This document shows, in pieces, positions 9,900 to 22,611 of a stretch of 24,579 bases of DNA. The notes under the pieces are model-generated. The model saw nothing but the letters and a program-made list of their open reading frames with translations, was not told the origin of the DNA and made no database searches. Each line of letters begins with the position of its first letter. The stretch's first letter is position 1. The position numbers and the translations under genes are program-made. The DNA is from a virus, in the IMG/VR virus record IMGVR_UViG_3300025128_000317, positions 1-24,579 of that record; one strand, written 5' to 3'.

Positions 9900-11999
9900 C
9901 CTAAGACCATCGTCTTGTATATCTAGTCTAAGGTCACCGTATCTCCACTCTGTACCCGTGGCATTGTTCTCCAGTTTAATTCTAGCCTGTCTTCCCCTAG
10001 ACCTGAACCTGACTGTCTCTGTGTTCTGCGTCACATTGAAAGGTCCCTTTGTTTTAAGCGCACCGTTTGGAAACTCTTTCGTCTGTATGGTAAAAGAAAG
10101 CTGACCATTGTTAATCTCAACATCAGGAATCAACCTGTCAACAAAGAGCATCTCGTTCCCGTCACCTATGCCAAAGTCAGCAGACTCAATAAAGGAATCT
10201 ATCTTCTCTCCCTTTCCTGTGAACAGGTCTTGTATCTCATTATCGTATATTCTAGTTGTACCCACAGAGGTACCAGTGTTTACAATGTTATCATATACAT
10301 CTCTGTCATCCCAAGTGGTCCAGATGGCATCACCGTATACCCAATAGTTTTCTTCCATGGACCAAGAGACATACTTGTTACACTCTGTGGAATCAGCAGA
10401 GGGGTACAGCCACGTGACTTCTTTAAACTCTGAGTTGACACCTGCGTATATCTTGTTCATCTGCTCTCTGTTTATATCAGAGAAAACATACCTTCTGACA
10501 GTGCAGTCTAGTCTCCTGACCCTCCCGTCAAAAGCAAAGAAGTTATCGTGGCCCATCCAGACAGGTGTACCGTCCATGTCTATGCCACCGTGTTGACTGA
10601 CTCCACCGCACCCTGTGCCTAGTTCAGAGAAGGAAAAGATAAAAGGAGGACCAGTGAAGCGCATACCGTATAGAACATGGTCAGTAAGAACTGCAATCTG
10701 GTTTCTGCTCCTGATACCTTGTACAATCTGAGTACCACCTGTAAGCGTGTTTTCTCCCGAAGTAGAACTGATAGAAGGCGTCCAATTAGTATAATCATTT
10801 TGATCTGACCACCTGACAAGTAAAGGTTCTTTTGTCCCTGCCACGTTAGAACAACCAAAACAAACAACGTGTCTGTCATTGGGAGAAACAATAAATGTAT
10901 TGACACTGACAGGTGCATTGGTCACGGCAACTGCTCTGACATCTCCTCCTGAAGTGGGAAACCACTGGTAGAGACCCCGTCCTCTTTTATTGGCCAGTAG
11001 TATTTCTCCAAAGGTATCTAGTTGCCAGTTGGCAGCTTCAAAGGTGATACCAGAAGAAACAGCAGGAGAGTTCCATGTCCTGTACCCAGCAGTGGTGCTG
11101 ACATTTACAAGGAACTGTGCTACAACAGAAGTACCTGCAGCGGCACTGGTGGCAGCAGCATTCACCAAAGAATCAATTGTAAAATTGTTTGCATCACTTA
11201 TAGAAACTACTTGAAAAATAGGCCCTCCAAAAGTAGGACTTGTCAAAACAATATTGCCACCCACTGGTGTAGCAGTGGTAAAGTATACAAAGTCATTCTC
11301 TTCTAACCCATGTCCTGTGCTATTGACACTAACTGCTGCTCTAGTAGCAACTACATTTATTTTTGTATTTAAGACCACAGAAGTAAAAACCTCTGCGTTA
11401 TAGTTAGAAGCTCCATACCCTGTGCCTGTGATACCAACAGAAGTTCCAGAAGGTATCAGGTACCGCGCAGTGGCATGTCCCGCTGCACTCTGGTTGGAAC
11501 CTGCTGTAGAAGTGTTATCAAAAGCAAAGGTGTTTATATTGATGACACTGACAGAGAATGTGTTATTAAAGGTGTAGTCTGTGGGGACAGAGGAAGACGC
11601 AAACACTGCGTAATCACCAGTGGTGAGACCATGGTTAGTATCTGATACACAGACTCTTACACTGTCCAGAGTAGTTCCAAAAGCATTGGTCAGATTTACA
11701 GAAGTTCTAACCGGGGTTATCTCATGTGTTACCCCGTTGTCATATTCATAGAGAAACTTCTCTGTTCCAGTGGCAAGGTGCTTCTGCGTGATGTTGTCCT
11801 GCCACGTAAGAATATCTCTACCAGTTCCCACCAGAGTTCCAGAAGTTTTAACCTCCCAGCCTCTGATGTTCTCTGGCTTCTTGTCTCTGAACCTAACTCT
11901 GTTCCCGTCATACCAAGAACCCTGCTCCGCGTACTGAGTAGATTCTCTGTGTATGCCTTGCCTAAAGTTAAGCTTTTTTGTTTGTGATAGTGTAGACAA
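9897..11999 (-). CDS. Tail nozzle / tail-tubular-protein-B-like beta-propeller protein (700 aa)
   Basis: The N-terminus (FRQGIHRESTQYAEQGSWYD, then NRVRFRDKKPENIRGW, 12-48) is the signature start of the large nozzle/hub protein of marine short-tailed phages. The core repeats beta-propeller blades: LLVRWSDQNDYTNWTP (393-408), GTQIVQGIRSRNQIAVLTD (422-440), LGTGCGGVSQ (460-469), VWMGHDNFFAFDGRVRRLDC (480-499), YVFSDINREQMNKIYAG (504-520). It ends with FRSRGRQARIKLENNATG and LRLDIQDDG. By family it sits at the tail tip like T7 gp12 or P22 gp10. Residues about 100-310 hold two HGL-type beta modules (H123, H230) not found in the core family. The start is TTG 11999, with AGAGGA 7 bases upstream; no in-frame ATG precedes the conserved N-terminus. 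It follows the short fibre gene directly. Confidence 0.78.
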   Translation of the reverse strand: MSTLSQTKKLNFRQGIHRESTQYAEQGSWYDGNRVRFRDKKPENIRGWEVKTSGTLVGTGRDILTWQDNITQKHLATGTEKFLYEYDNGVTHEITPVRTSVNLTNAFGTTLDSVRVCVSDTNHGLTTGDYAVFASSSVPTDYTFNNTFSVSVININTFAFDNTSTAGSNQSAAGHATARYLIPSGTSVGITGTGYGASNYNAEVFTSVVLNTKINVVATRAAVSVNSTGHGLEENDFVYFTTATPVGGNIVLTSPTFGGPIFQVVSISDANNFTIDSLVNAAATSAAAGTSVVAQFLVNVSTTAGYRTWNSPAVSSGITFEAANWQLDTFGEILLANKRGRGLYQWFPTSGGDVRAVAVTNAPVSVNTFIVSPNDRHVVCFGCSNVAGTKEPLLVRWSDQNDYTNWTPSISSTSGENTLTGGTQIVQGIRSRNQIAVLTDHVLYGMRFTGPPFIFSFSELGTGCGGVSQHGGIDMDGTPVWMGHDNFFAFDGRVRRLDCTVRRYVFSDINREQMNKIYAGVNSEFKEVTWLYPSADSTECNKYVSWSMEENYWVYGDAIWTTWDDRDVYDNIVNTGTSVGTTRIYDNEIQDLFTGKGEKIDSFIESADFGIGDGNEMLFVDRLIPDVEINNGQLSFTIQTKEFPNGALKTKGPFNVTQNTETVRFRSRGRQARIKLENNATGTEWRYGDLRLDIQDDGLR

Positions 12000-13128: not shown

Positions 13129-13338
13129 TTAAGACGTAAATACTTTTTGTATAATAGCAGACATTGCTGCTCCTATACCAGAGGCCACTAGAAAAACTCC
13201 TAGGATAACTCCCTTACCTTTGTCCAGTTGACTTTCAAGTTGATCAAGCCTGACAGAAAGTCTATCAACTTCAGTGCTCAACTGATCCACAGCTTGGATC
13301 ATCTTCCCTAGTTCAACACCTGTCAACTGACTAGCCAC
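13129..13338 (-). CDS. Holin-like small membrane protein: N-terminal coiled coil, C-terminal transmembrane helix (69 aa)
   Basis: Residues about 10-40 (MIQAVDQLSTEVDRLSVRLD, QLESQLDKG) show a clean heptad coiled coil. Residues about 43-65 (GVILGVFLVASGIGAAMSAI and onward) form one transmembrane helix. A short tail (VFTS) follows. This coiled-coil-then-membrane layout matches XhlA-type holin-associated proteins and many phage holins, so a role in lysis or in anchoring the lysis machinery is likely but unproven. No endolysin or spanin is seen in the window. The start is GTG 13338, with AAGGA 8 bases upstream (13347-13351), because the first in-frame ATG lies well inside the coiled coil. Two bases separate it from the secreted-protein gene. 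Confidence 0.6.
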   Translation of the reverse strand: MASQLTGVELGKMIQAVDQLSTEVDRLSVRLDQLESQLDKGKGVILGVFLVASGIGAAMSAIIQKVFTS

Positions 13339-19894: not shown

Positions 19895-20173
19895 TTATAT
19901 AAAGTTCCACTGTGTAGTTTCTTCGCTCCATGTGGTGGTCACTGCGCTCCAGCTTTGGTTTCTGTCAGAATTATCAGGTGGTCTTGCATCTTTGATAACT
20001 TCTTTATCTATTGGAAATCTTACTCTATTCTGAGGATTGGTTACAAGATTAAATATACCATCACTTTCAGACTTAGCAACTATAAAGTCTGTTCCGGGTT
20101 CTCTTACTCTTTCGTCAAGTCTGTACCTGAAGCCTGATCTATCACTGATAAAAAAACCTTTCTTAAAAGACAT
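19895..20173 (-). CDS. Conserved-looking 92-aa phage structural protein, function unknown
   Basis: The N-terminus SFKKGFFISDRSGFRYRLDE followed by REPGTDFIVAKSESDG and NLVTNPQNRVRF is a pattern I recall from small proteins next to tail genes in marine phages. It is hydrophilic, has no signal peptide or cysteine, and ends in a Trp/Thr-rich segment (WSAVTTTWSEETTQWNFI). It lies between the basic cysteine-containing proteins and the first fibre, so it may help attach fibres to the tail or be a neck component. The start ATG 20173 has AGGTGG about 11 bases upstream and abuts the preceding stop (TAAATG). The gene is well supported; the function is not known. Confidence 0.65.
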   Translation of the reverse strand: MSFKKGFFISDRSGFRYRLDERVREPGTDFIVAKSESDGIFNLVTNPQNRVRFPIDKEVIKDARPPDNSDRNQSWSAVTTTWSEETTQWNFI

Positions 20174-20890: not shown

Positions 20891-21580
20891 TTAGACCACC
20901 TGTAGTCTGGGAGTGATAAAGAGACTCACTCGGTTTCTGTCTGAGTCCAGAGCACTGGTAAGAAGTTCTTCGTACTTTGCTTTAAGAACAGCTATTCTCT
21001 CTGCAGGGATACCGGCTCTCTTATAACTGAGGTAGTAGGCAAGGCCGCAGGTCAGAGCAGGCAGAAACCTGAAGGGAACATCTGCATTCTGAAGAGCACT
21101 CTTGCTAACATCTGCCAGACGTTTCATTCTATAGTTTCTAAAGGTGTAGGTATCTGCTGCGTCAGGCACAGGGAAGAAGAAAGCACTGACAGTCTCTCTT
21201 CCTCTGAGCGTGGCAAACTGTGTGGGCCTACCAGAGGTGGCTTTGTTGGTGATAGCCTCGTATTCCTCGTAGCCTATTCGGTTCATCTGAAAGTCATTGC
21301 TGTTGGAGGTCAGTCTGATATACCCAGAGAGAACGTCCACGGTCTCTGCAGGGAGCGTGTACTCTGCTGTTCCTGTGACCAGCGTGGTACTGGCTAGGTC
21401 TGTACCCCAGAGGAGGACACCACGGTTCTGCCAGTCTGTCAGCATCAGGTTGAGTGATCTTCTGGCAGTGATAGCATCATTGGCAAGCTCTGCCTGACCA
21501 CCTAGCATGGCATAGGCTTCTTCTATTACCTCGTCTATAAAGAAGGTACTGTCAAAGTCTGATGTGGTTGCAATGGCCAT
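20891..21580 (-). CDS. Head-tail adaptor, tail-tubular-protein-A-like (229 aa)
   Basis: The pattern is that of the adaptor ring protein that joins portal and nozzle in podoviruses (T7 gp11, P22 gp4 functional class). Residues 16-50 form helices (DEVIEEAYAMLGGQAELAND, ARRSLNLMLTDWQNRG). LLWGTDLASTTLVTGTAEYT (56-75) and LPAETVDVL form strands, and GYEEYEAITNK leads into TSGRPTQFATLRG (115-127). Residues 170-229 are the C-terminal helices (PALTCGLAYYLSYKRAGIPA, DSDRNRVSLFITPR). Length fits the family. The nozzle gene lies downstream as expected, although fibre genes are inserted between. The start ATG 21580 uses an AGG-rich site formed by the end of the previous gene. The family call is by pattern and order rather than by search. 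Confidence 0.72.
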   Translation of the reverse strand: MAIATTSDFDSTFFIDEVIEEAYAMLGGQAELANDAITARRSLNLMLTDWQNRGVLLWGTDLASTTLVTGTAEYTLPAETVDVLSGYIRLTSNSNDFQMNRIGYEEYEAITNKATSGRPTQFATLRGRETVSAFFFPVPDAADTYTFRNYRMKRLADVSKSALQNADVPFRFLPALTCGLAYYLSYKRAGIPAERIAVLKAKYEELLTSALDSDRNRVSLFITPRLQVV

Positions 21581-21848: not shown

Positions 21849-22007
21849 CCAAGCTGGTTTCACAAGGGTATCCATAACTTTACCTCCTCCCTTCAGGGGA
21901 AGAGGTTTCATATAAGGTATCCTTCTACCAGAGGGAAGCTGTTGTTCTACGTTTACCTTCTTTATACCGTAGGGCTTCACTGTTAAATTATATTTTTCAA
22001 AAGCCAT
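21834..22007 (-). CDS. 57-aa basic protein, unknown, overlapping the holin-like gene's stop
   Basis: The reading frame starts at ATG 22007, overlapping the preceding stop as TGATG, and ends TAA at 21834-21836. The protein begins MAFEKYNLTVKPYGIKKVNV, continues QQLPSGRRIPYMKPLPLKGG and ends AWMRNR. It is basic and has no cysteine, signal or membrane helix. The fit between two genes with no spare bases, the AAAGG site upstream and the shared MRNR end with its neighbour support it as a real gene. I do not recognise a family. It is short enough to be missed by length filters. Confidence 0.6.
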   Translation of the reverse strand: MAFEKYNLTVKPYGIKKVNVEQQLPSGRRIPYMKPLPLKGGGKVMDTLVKPAWMRNR

Positions 22008-22285
22008 CAGGAACGGTACCTTTCTGTTGTTTCCTTTAGAAGAGGGTCTGAACGCTTTTGTAGAACTGTGTCCAGCTTAGAATCTAACCTCTGTACTAAA
22101 GTTTCTACTCTGTTGCTTTTATCTATCAGAGCAATTATAATATCATCTTGATTTTTAAGAGCAGATGCTACGTCTCTGAGCATAAAATGAAGAAGCTTCC
22201 AAGCTGCCGCTCCTGCTCCTATGGTGGCAACTATGGCAAGTCCGTAGTCTGATACAGCTTGAAATACACTAAAGTCTTCCACCAT
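22007..22285 (-). CDS. Holin-like small membrane protein: N-terminal transmembrane helix, C-terminal coiled coil (92 aa)
   Basis: Residues about 13-36 (YGLAIVATIGAGAAAWKLLH and FML) form one transmembrane helix preceded by an acidic N-terminus (MVEDFSVFQ). Residues 38-80 (VASALKNQDDIIIALIDKSN, RVETLVQRLDSKLDTVL) form an amphipathic coiled coil. This topology is the reverse of the 69-aa protein at 13129-13338. Similar phage proteins are annotated as holins or as unknown membrane proteins. AAGGAAA lies about 6 bases before ATG 22285. Its stop overlaps the start of the 57-aa gene. A role in lysis or in membrane contact during infection is plausible; I cannot decide which of the two is the holin. 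Confidence 0.6.
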   Translation of the reverse strand: MVEDFSVFQAVSDYGLAIVATIGAGAAAWKLLHFMLRDVASALKNQDDIIIALIDKSNRVETLVQRLDSKLDTVLQKRSDPLLKETTERYRS

Positions 22286-22301: not shown

Positions 22302-22424
22302 CTATTCCCCTGAAGGAACTGGGTTACAAGAACAACCTCCTTCGCTGGTACAAGAACAATCTTCACAACCTGTGCACTGACAGGAAGGATTAGAACACCT
22401 CTTCTTCTCTTGTTCCTCAGACAA
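22302..22424 (-). CDS. 40-aa cysteine-rich metallothionein-like mini-protein (TTG start)
   Basis: The frame from TTG 22424 to TAG 22302-22304 encodes 40 residues, eight of them cysteine (10, 15, 17, 20, 23, 25, 31, 33). The arrangement is C-x4-C-x-C-x2-C-x2-C-x-C-x5-C-x-C, with no aromatic residue. The core CSNPSCQCTGCEDCSC is typical of metallothionein-like metal-thiolate proteins. The first nine residues are charged (LSEEQEKKR). AGGA sits 7 bases upstream of the TTG, the same spacing and the same TTG-TCT context as the TTG start of the nozzle gene. The frame starts within the last codons of the 64-aa gene and ends 16 bases before the next ATG, exactly filling the only unexplained gap in this block. 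There is no in-frame ATG. Metal binding is inferred. It may bind zinc or copper, act in redox, or be a small virion component. Confidence 0.6.
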   Translation of the reverse strand: MSEEQEKKRCSNPSCQCTGCEDCSCTSEGGCSCNPVPSGE

Positions 22425-22611
22425 CGTCCGGTCCTATTCTAGCTGCTCCGTAGCCCTGCCCTGTGGGTTTACCGTTGAAGGCGTTTAATTTTTCAGAGTC
22501 CACGGGAGGGTTCTGATCAGGAATAAGGTAGTCTTCTTTGTTACCTCCCTTTCCAACCTTACCTCCTTTTTTAAGTCCTCTCTTCTTGGCATTCATATAG
22601 TTCATAGGCAT
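22417..22611 (-). CDS. Small Gly/Lys-rich protein (64 aa), unknown
   Basis: The first half is basic and Gly-rich (MNAKKRGLKKGGKVGKGGNK); the second half is DYLIPDQNPPVDSEKLNAFN followed by GKPTGQGYGAARIGPDVV. It has no cysteine and no membrane segment, and is probably disordered. It starts at ATG 22611, 3 bases after the preceding stop, with AGAGGA about 12 bases upstream; Met 3 and Met 6 are possible alternative starts. Its last codons overlap the TTG start of the cysteine-rich gene. No family is recognised. It sits in a run of tiny basic genes, so it may be a virion or assembly cofactor. Confidence 0.55.
   Translation of the reverse strand: MPMNYMNAKKRGLKKGGKVGKGGNKEDYLIPDQNPPVDSEKLNAFNGKPTGQGYGAARIGPDVV
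22432..22435 (-). promoter_or_regulatory. Ribosome binding site for the TTG-start cysteine-rich gene
   Basis: AGGA on the minus strand lies inside the end of the 64-aa gene, 7 bases before TTG 22424. It implies coupled translation from the upstream gene. Confidence 0.45.

Follow-up and report, generated by a model that had tools for sequence, protein, structure and literature searches.

The minus strand of the window, the 24,579-nucleotide stretch of viral DNA analysed here, carries a genuine 40-codon gene whose conserved cysteines are under purifying selection. Its product very probably binds metal, and we put the chance that its job is metal buffering or sequestration at roughly 60%. From its sequence the peptide would be metallothionein-like, yet it belongs to none of the known metallothionein families tested.

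Genomic setting and conservation of the gene

The original prediction described an open reading frame at 22302-22424 with eight cysteines in 24 residues, leaving the strand unstated. We find this frame on the minus strand, running from a TTG codon (22424-22422) to a stop at 22302-22304 and encoding MSEEQEKKRCSNPSCQCTGCEDCSCTSEGGCSCNPVPSGE, with a cysteine spacing of 4-1-2-2-1-5-1. The features that bear on it are as follows.

22302..22424, minus strand: cysteine-rich, metallothionein-like gene of 40 aa, running from TTG to a TAG stop
22432..22435, minus strand: Shine-Dalgarno-like AGGA, 7 nt ahead of the TTG of the cysteine-rich gene
22417..22611, minus strand: upstream small gene, 64 aa, with its TGA inside the overlap with the cysteine-rich gene
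22007..22285, minus strand: downstream gene of 92 aa, coiled-coil-like after a single hydrophobic segment at the N-terminus, PHROG 18771 (function unknown)
20891..21580, minus strand: adaptor-like tail gene, 229 aa, PHROG 12985, the anchor of the presence/absence survey
19895..20173, minus strand: small structural protein whose orthologue in a lineage lacking the cysteine-rich gene has a CxxC...CxxC zinc ribbon; the four cysteines are lost here

The frame had been said to fill the space between two genes exactly, which is nearly so: its 5′ end overlaps the TGA of the 64-aa gene by 8 nt, and 16 nt separate its stop from the downstream ATG. The overlap fits putative translational coupling to the 64-aa gene; two related loci (L017 and L037) keep the cysteine-rich gene with the 64-aa gene missing directly upstream. 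As had been pointed out, the start resembles that of the nozzle gene (TTG at 11999), which likewise reads AGGA, 7 bases, TTG-TCT. Promoter and terminator scans around the gene gave nothing useful and no promoter of its own is evident; an Rfam scan was equally uninformative.

Conservation settles that this frame is a gene. Using the downstream 92-aa gene as query we retrieved 41 IMG/VR relatives, 40 of them with upstream sequence, and the cysteine-rich frame lies at the same place in all 40. We also looked for related phages without the frame or its cysteines by a survey anchored on the adaptor (at least 74% identical, with at least 800 nt of upstream sequence), and all 57 loci that qualify have an orthologue in the corresponding position, including 10 that a strict regular expression had missed. 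The next clade out, in which the adaptor is 56-60% identical, lacks the gene. Most orthologues start with TTG; two lineages have an ATG behind a strong Shine-Dalgarno sequence (AAGGAGG in L014, TAGGAGGG in L210 and L279), and the start is therefore fixed independently. When codon changes in the cysteine columns were placed on a tree of the flanking gene, 21 of 22 were silent and one replaced Cys by Ser (P < 1e-10 under neutrality). The pooled dN/dS for the whole gene, a comparison proposed with the original prediction, is ~0.46 (pairs with moderate pS), because the tails of the peptide vary freely. The prediction of an overlooked, TTG-started gene is thus upheld by its conservation in related loci.

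A chance open frame without a product is scarcely credible on these data. The TTG start and short length would suit such a frame, and cysteine-rich antisense frames are common in this DNA. It is contradicted by the conservation, by the silent changes at cysteine codons, and by the independent ATG-started orthologues. In dinucleotide shuffles only 0.0025 such frames are expected per window, and the remaining operon genes contain 29 cysteines in 8,050 residues (an average of 0.36%).

The phages that carry the gene are uncultured and probably marine. Long contigs of the group contain portal, GroES, scaffold-like, capsid and tail genes. The structural part of the earlier description of a tail/lysis block stands; the lysis part is not borne out, the downstream neighbour being a single-TM coiled-coil-like protein of PHROG 18771. 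By capsid, portal and nozzle the nearest cultured phages are the HTVC023P-type pelagiphages, roseophages CRP-901/902 and phage DSL-LC04, with capsids 51-57% identical and a structural module with GroES in common. Whole-genome searches of HTVC023P, HTVC027P, CRP-902 and DSL-LC04, however, found neither the cysteine-rich gene nor the TM gene, and the sequences place the window group near these phages but well apart. Group G+C is 40-48%, which we take to speak against a SAR11 host. The window also encodes, at 13129-13338, a second small protein with a coiled coil and a TM segment, here C-terminal; it is XhlA-like by eye and has no family match.

The cysteine core and probable metal binding

The number of cysteines varies from 7 to 10 across the window family. 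The window clade has 8, with Ser at Cys6 in one subclade; the sister clade has 9 and ends in CxEPCxTxTCDC, with one member reaching 10. His takes the place of Cys3 in L295 and L299-L305 (NPNCGHEKC vs NPSCQCTGC), and this swap at an otherwise invariant position would be a typical exchange of metal ligands. The core contains no aromatic residue in 30 of 30 variants, none or one aliphatic residue, and a net charge between -1 and -7, a composition as in metallothioneins and unlike that of nucleic-acid-binding zinc knuckles. The peptide has no N-terminal hydrophobic signal and would therefore reside in the reducing cytoplasm. Variation and composition together make disulphide, DNA-binding and chance readings poor, and leave rival metal-binding readings unaffected. 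Without metal, a peptide of this composition would have nothing to fold around.

Three observations count against a metallothionein-like buffer. AlphaFold models of the peptide have mean pLDDT values of 70 and 67, of moderate confidence only, and structure comparison of the prediction gave no fold match. The loss of Cys6 is tolerated in one clade. Finally, the TTG start suggests modest expression, and a buffer would need many copies.

The description as metallothionein-like holds for the cysteine composition and the conserved cysteines; membership of a known family finds no support. In the broad sense the peptide has the marks of a metallothionein: low mass, many cysteines in CxC and CxxC groups (8 of 40 residues), and a core free of aromatics. 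It has no match in Pfam, NCBIfam, PHROG or PDB families, PDB metallothioneins are not hit by the window family at E < 10, and hhalign of the family against SmtA gives a probability of 0.5%; as a positive control, the SmtA sequence does retrieve 1jjd, 6gv6, 6gv7 and 6grv. In a marine cyanobacterium, SmtA-type metallothionein buffers or stores zinc in the cytosol (PMC9337993), and PflQ2 MT holds a Zn3Cys9His cluster (PMC7387436). These structurally characterized proteins (SmtA/BmtA and PflQ2 MT; 1jjd, 6gv6, 6gv7, 6grv) are likewise small and packed with cysteines in CxC and CxxC groups, with an occasional His ligand. However, they are 52-81 aa long in the PDB vs about 40 aa in the window family, the central region of SmtA is missing from the window peptide, and there is no profile similarity. 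Short eukaryotic Cu/Zn metallothioneins, such as the fungal CxC-repeat proteins, are very short, with few types of residue besides Cys and no aromatics, and in all of this the window peptide resembles them. In contrast to them, the window family has no Pfam match, and one mini-protein of the wider class described below reaches Metallothio_Euk at only E 3.1. Across kingdoms this likeness is convergent at most.

A bacterial origin was considered and rejected: neither the strict peptide nor the window-type spacing pattern brought up a relative among 84,980 species genomes, and searches of 398 Pseudomonadota genomes with the profile and the relaxed pattern were equally empty. The record 'Microcystis phage MaAM05' (MW495066.1) contains a canonical SmtA-like frame at 111775-111996, beside fabI; the record may be cyanobacterial host DNA, and the frame was set aside as no precedent. 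We found no report of a phage-encoded metallothionein in the literature searched, an absence that is weak evidence. A tblastn search of cultured phages with the window protein returned nothing; the BLAST low-complexity filter may mask cysteine-rich queries, and chosen isolates were therefore searched by whole-record profile or pattern. Looser cysteine patterns gave mostly low-complexity noise.

Neighbouring genes and a proposed function

The region around the gene offers one hint as to the metal. In relatives that lack the cysteine-rich gene (adaptor 56-60% identical), a zinc-ribbon gene follows the adaptor, and its four cysteines are kept in 7 of 7 such loci (L315-L327) and lost in 22 of 22 distinct loci with the cysteine-rich gene. 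The ribbon of the L319 orthologue scores E 0.0055 against Zn_ribbon_8, below Pfam's cut-off. The loss would be consistent with an altered zinc economy; drawn from one comparison of two clades, it is no more than suggestive and could be coincidental.

The downstream 92-aa gene accompanies the cysteine-rich gene in the loci examined and is absent from relatives without it. The peptide could thus be a metal- or redox-sensing partner of this single-TM coiled-coil-like protein, for instance a switch governing membrane insertion or the timing of lysis, and the two genes do abut or overlap as well as occurring and missing together. We consider this distinctly unlikely, since the co-occurrence again amounts to one clade contrast and a general link of cysteine mini-genes to small membrane proteins or holins found no support: small TM proteins are no commoner downstream of the wider class than in the background (14% vs 26% among small genes).

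We favour a cytoplasmic metallothionein-like peptide in which 7-10 ligands, Cys or Cys plus His, would surround a small d10 metal cluster that substitutes for a hydrophobic core. The metal would most likely be Zn(II), with Cu(I) and Cd(II) as possible alternatives; zinc is favoured because of the Cys-His exchange and the zinc ribbon lost nearby, and copper may be bound instead. The peptide would be produced along with the products of the late head-tail genes, its translation probably coupled to that of the upstream gene, and would most likely buffer or sequester metal in the dying host cell. It could in this way shield thiol- or metal-sensitive assembly steps from Zn and Cu freed by breakdown of host metalloproteins, or it could deprive host enzymes of metal. 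Both the choice of metal and the benefit to the phage are speculative.

A wider class of viral mini-proteins

The gene had been viewed as a singular oddity; instead, its product belongs, as one branch, to a wider class of mini-proteins encoded by viruses. The relaxed pattern C-x-N-P-x-C-x-C-x2-C-x-C matches at least 120 stretches in IMG/VR, and most of the matches listed encode ORFs of 20-60 aa that start with ATG, for example MCNNPECKCENCTCDPCECSSENPCGCEVDDEQVAPV. At least 79 unique further ATG mini-ORFs with CxNPxCxCxxCxC are found in other uncultured viruses. The window protein itself is a short cysteine-rich ORF that starts with C-x-N-P-x-C-x-C-x2-C (in the window-family alignment N11 never varies and P12 is kept in at least 90%), and it scores 41.8 bits for membership of the wider class vs at most 35.7 in 30 shuffles with the cysteines held fixed. 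Aligned by hhalign, the window family (A3) and the wider class (A6) are related with 94% probability (E 1.4e-7), part of this profile similarity being due to selection, as the class was collected by an NP-containing pattern. L287, a relative with 10 Cys, forms a link between the spacing classes.

The mini-ORFs of the wider class behave as genes. A correctly placed Shine-Dalgarno sequence precedes 50 of the 79 listed (63%) vs 4.8% of all ATGs on the same contigs. They have a median of 24% Cys, and 62 of the 79 are acidic. Cysteine codon differences in 74 pairs that are at least 60% identical, among the matches listed, are silent in 111 cases and replacements in none, whereas other codons in the same pairs, which are not independent of each other, show 185 silent and 312 replacement differences. 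Pfam, PHROG and NCBIfam models have no match to them, and searches of seven myovirus genomes (cyanophages and pelagiphages) and of four podoviruses found no match to the class.

Their genomic surroundings are diverse. Contigs of the listed mini-ORFs carry T4-type genes (RNR, baseplate hub, tail sheath, DnaB-like helicase); other listed sites are on contigs with a portal like that of the window group, or have a phage lysozyme gene or a NifU-like gene as neighbour. This spread over many unrelated places tells against a structural zinc-knot, in which the metal would serve only to hold a small fold that either binds another phage protein while tail or head is being assembled or sits in the virion, as do the lack of hydrophobic or aromatic residues in the core and the drift in cysteine number. 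The conserved position among head-tail genes is what such a part would lead one to expect, and within the window's clade the N, P, T and G of the core match the cysteines in conservation, with motif and spacing fixed. On balance we regard the zinc-knot as rather unlikely.

A NifU_N/IscU-like Fe-S scaffold gene lies close upstream of the mini-gene in L465 (1313-1705; NifU_N E 2.4e-52, the one locus put to this test), and L409, L457 and L470 have similar-looking neighbours. Together with the high thiol content, such adjacency would suit a thiol antioxidant, or a peptide with an Fe-S-related role, in place of a Zn/Cu buffer. This we hold to be very unlikely, as a thiol pool needs neither a fixed cysteine spacing nor a Cys-to-His swap, and the window family shows no NifU neighbour.

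Several further variants were seen. Among the matches listed, the diverse viral contigs L404-L523 hold more than 90 other short cysteine-rich ORFs that start with ATG and contain CxNPxCxCxxCxC; the shortest complete ones have 19-22 aa and 7-8 Cys. In L493 and L512 the motif sits inside a longer frame of about 208 aa (LPCSNPGCECDPCTCSPVCKCG). ATG-started 9-Cys mini-genes with the sister-clade spacing occur at a different genomic place in L369, L373, L374, L387, L391 and L397, after a small secreted-looking protein; in L369 and L374 the next gene resembles a small terminase subunit.

Fremin et al. in 2022 reportedly predicted small overlooked phage gene families by comparative genomics; a review that cites their work makes no mention of cysteine or metal (PMC11323111). 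The metal-buffering reading extends, tentatively and at less than even confidence, to the class: many unrelated uncultured viruses may carry their own virus-specific, unrecognised mini-metallothionein that takes over or protects host metal homeostasis late in infection, and the window lineage, with this gene, may have done without a structural zinc ribbon. Trace metals limit life across much of the ocean. Real genes of 20-60 codons form a whole class that is missed by annotation and by family libraries. If the phage peptide binds Zn or Cu, metal handling would join the host functions that are under phage control.
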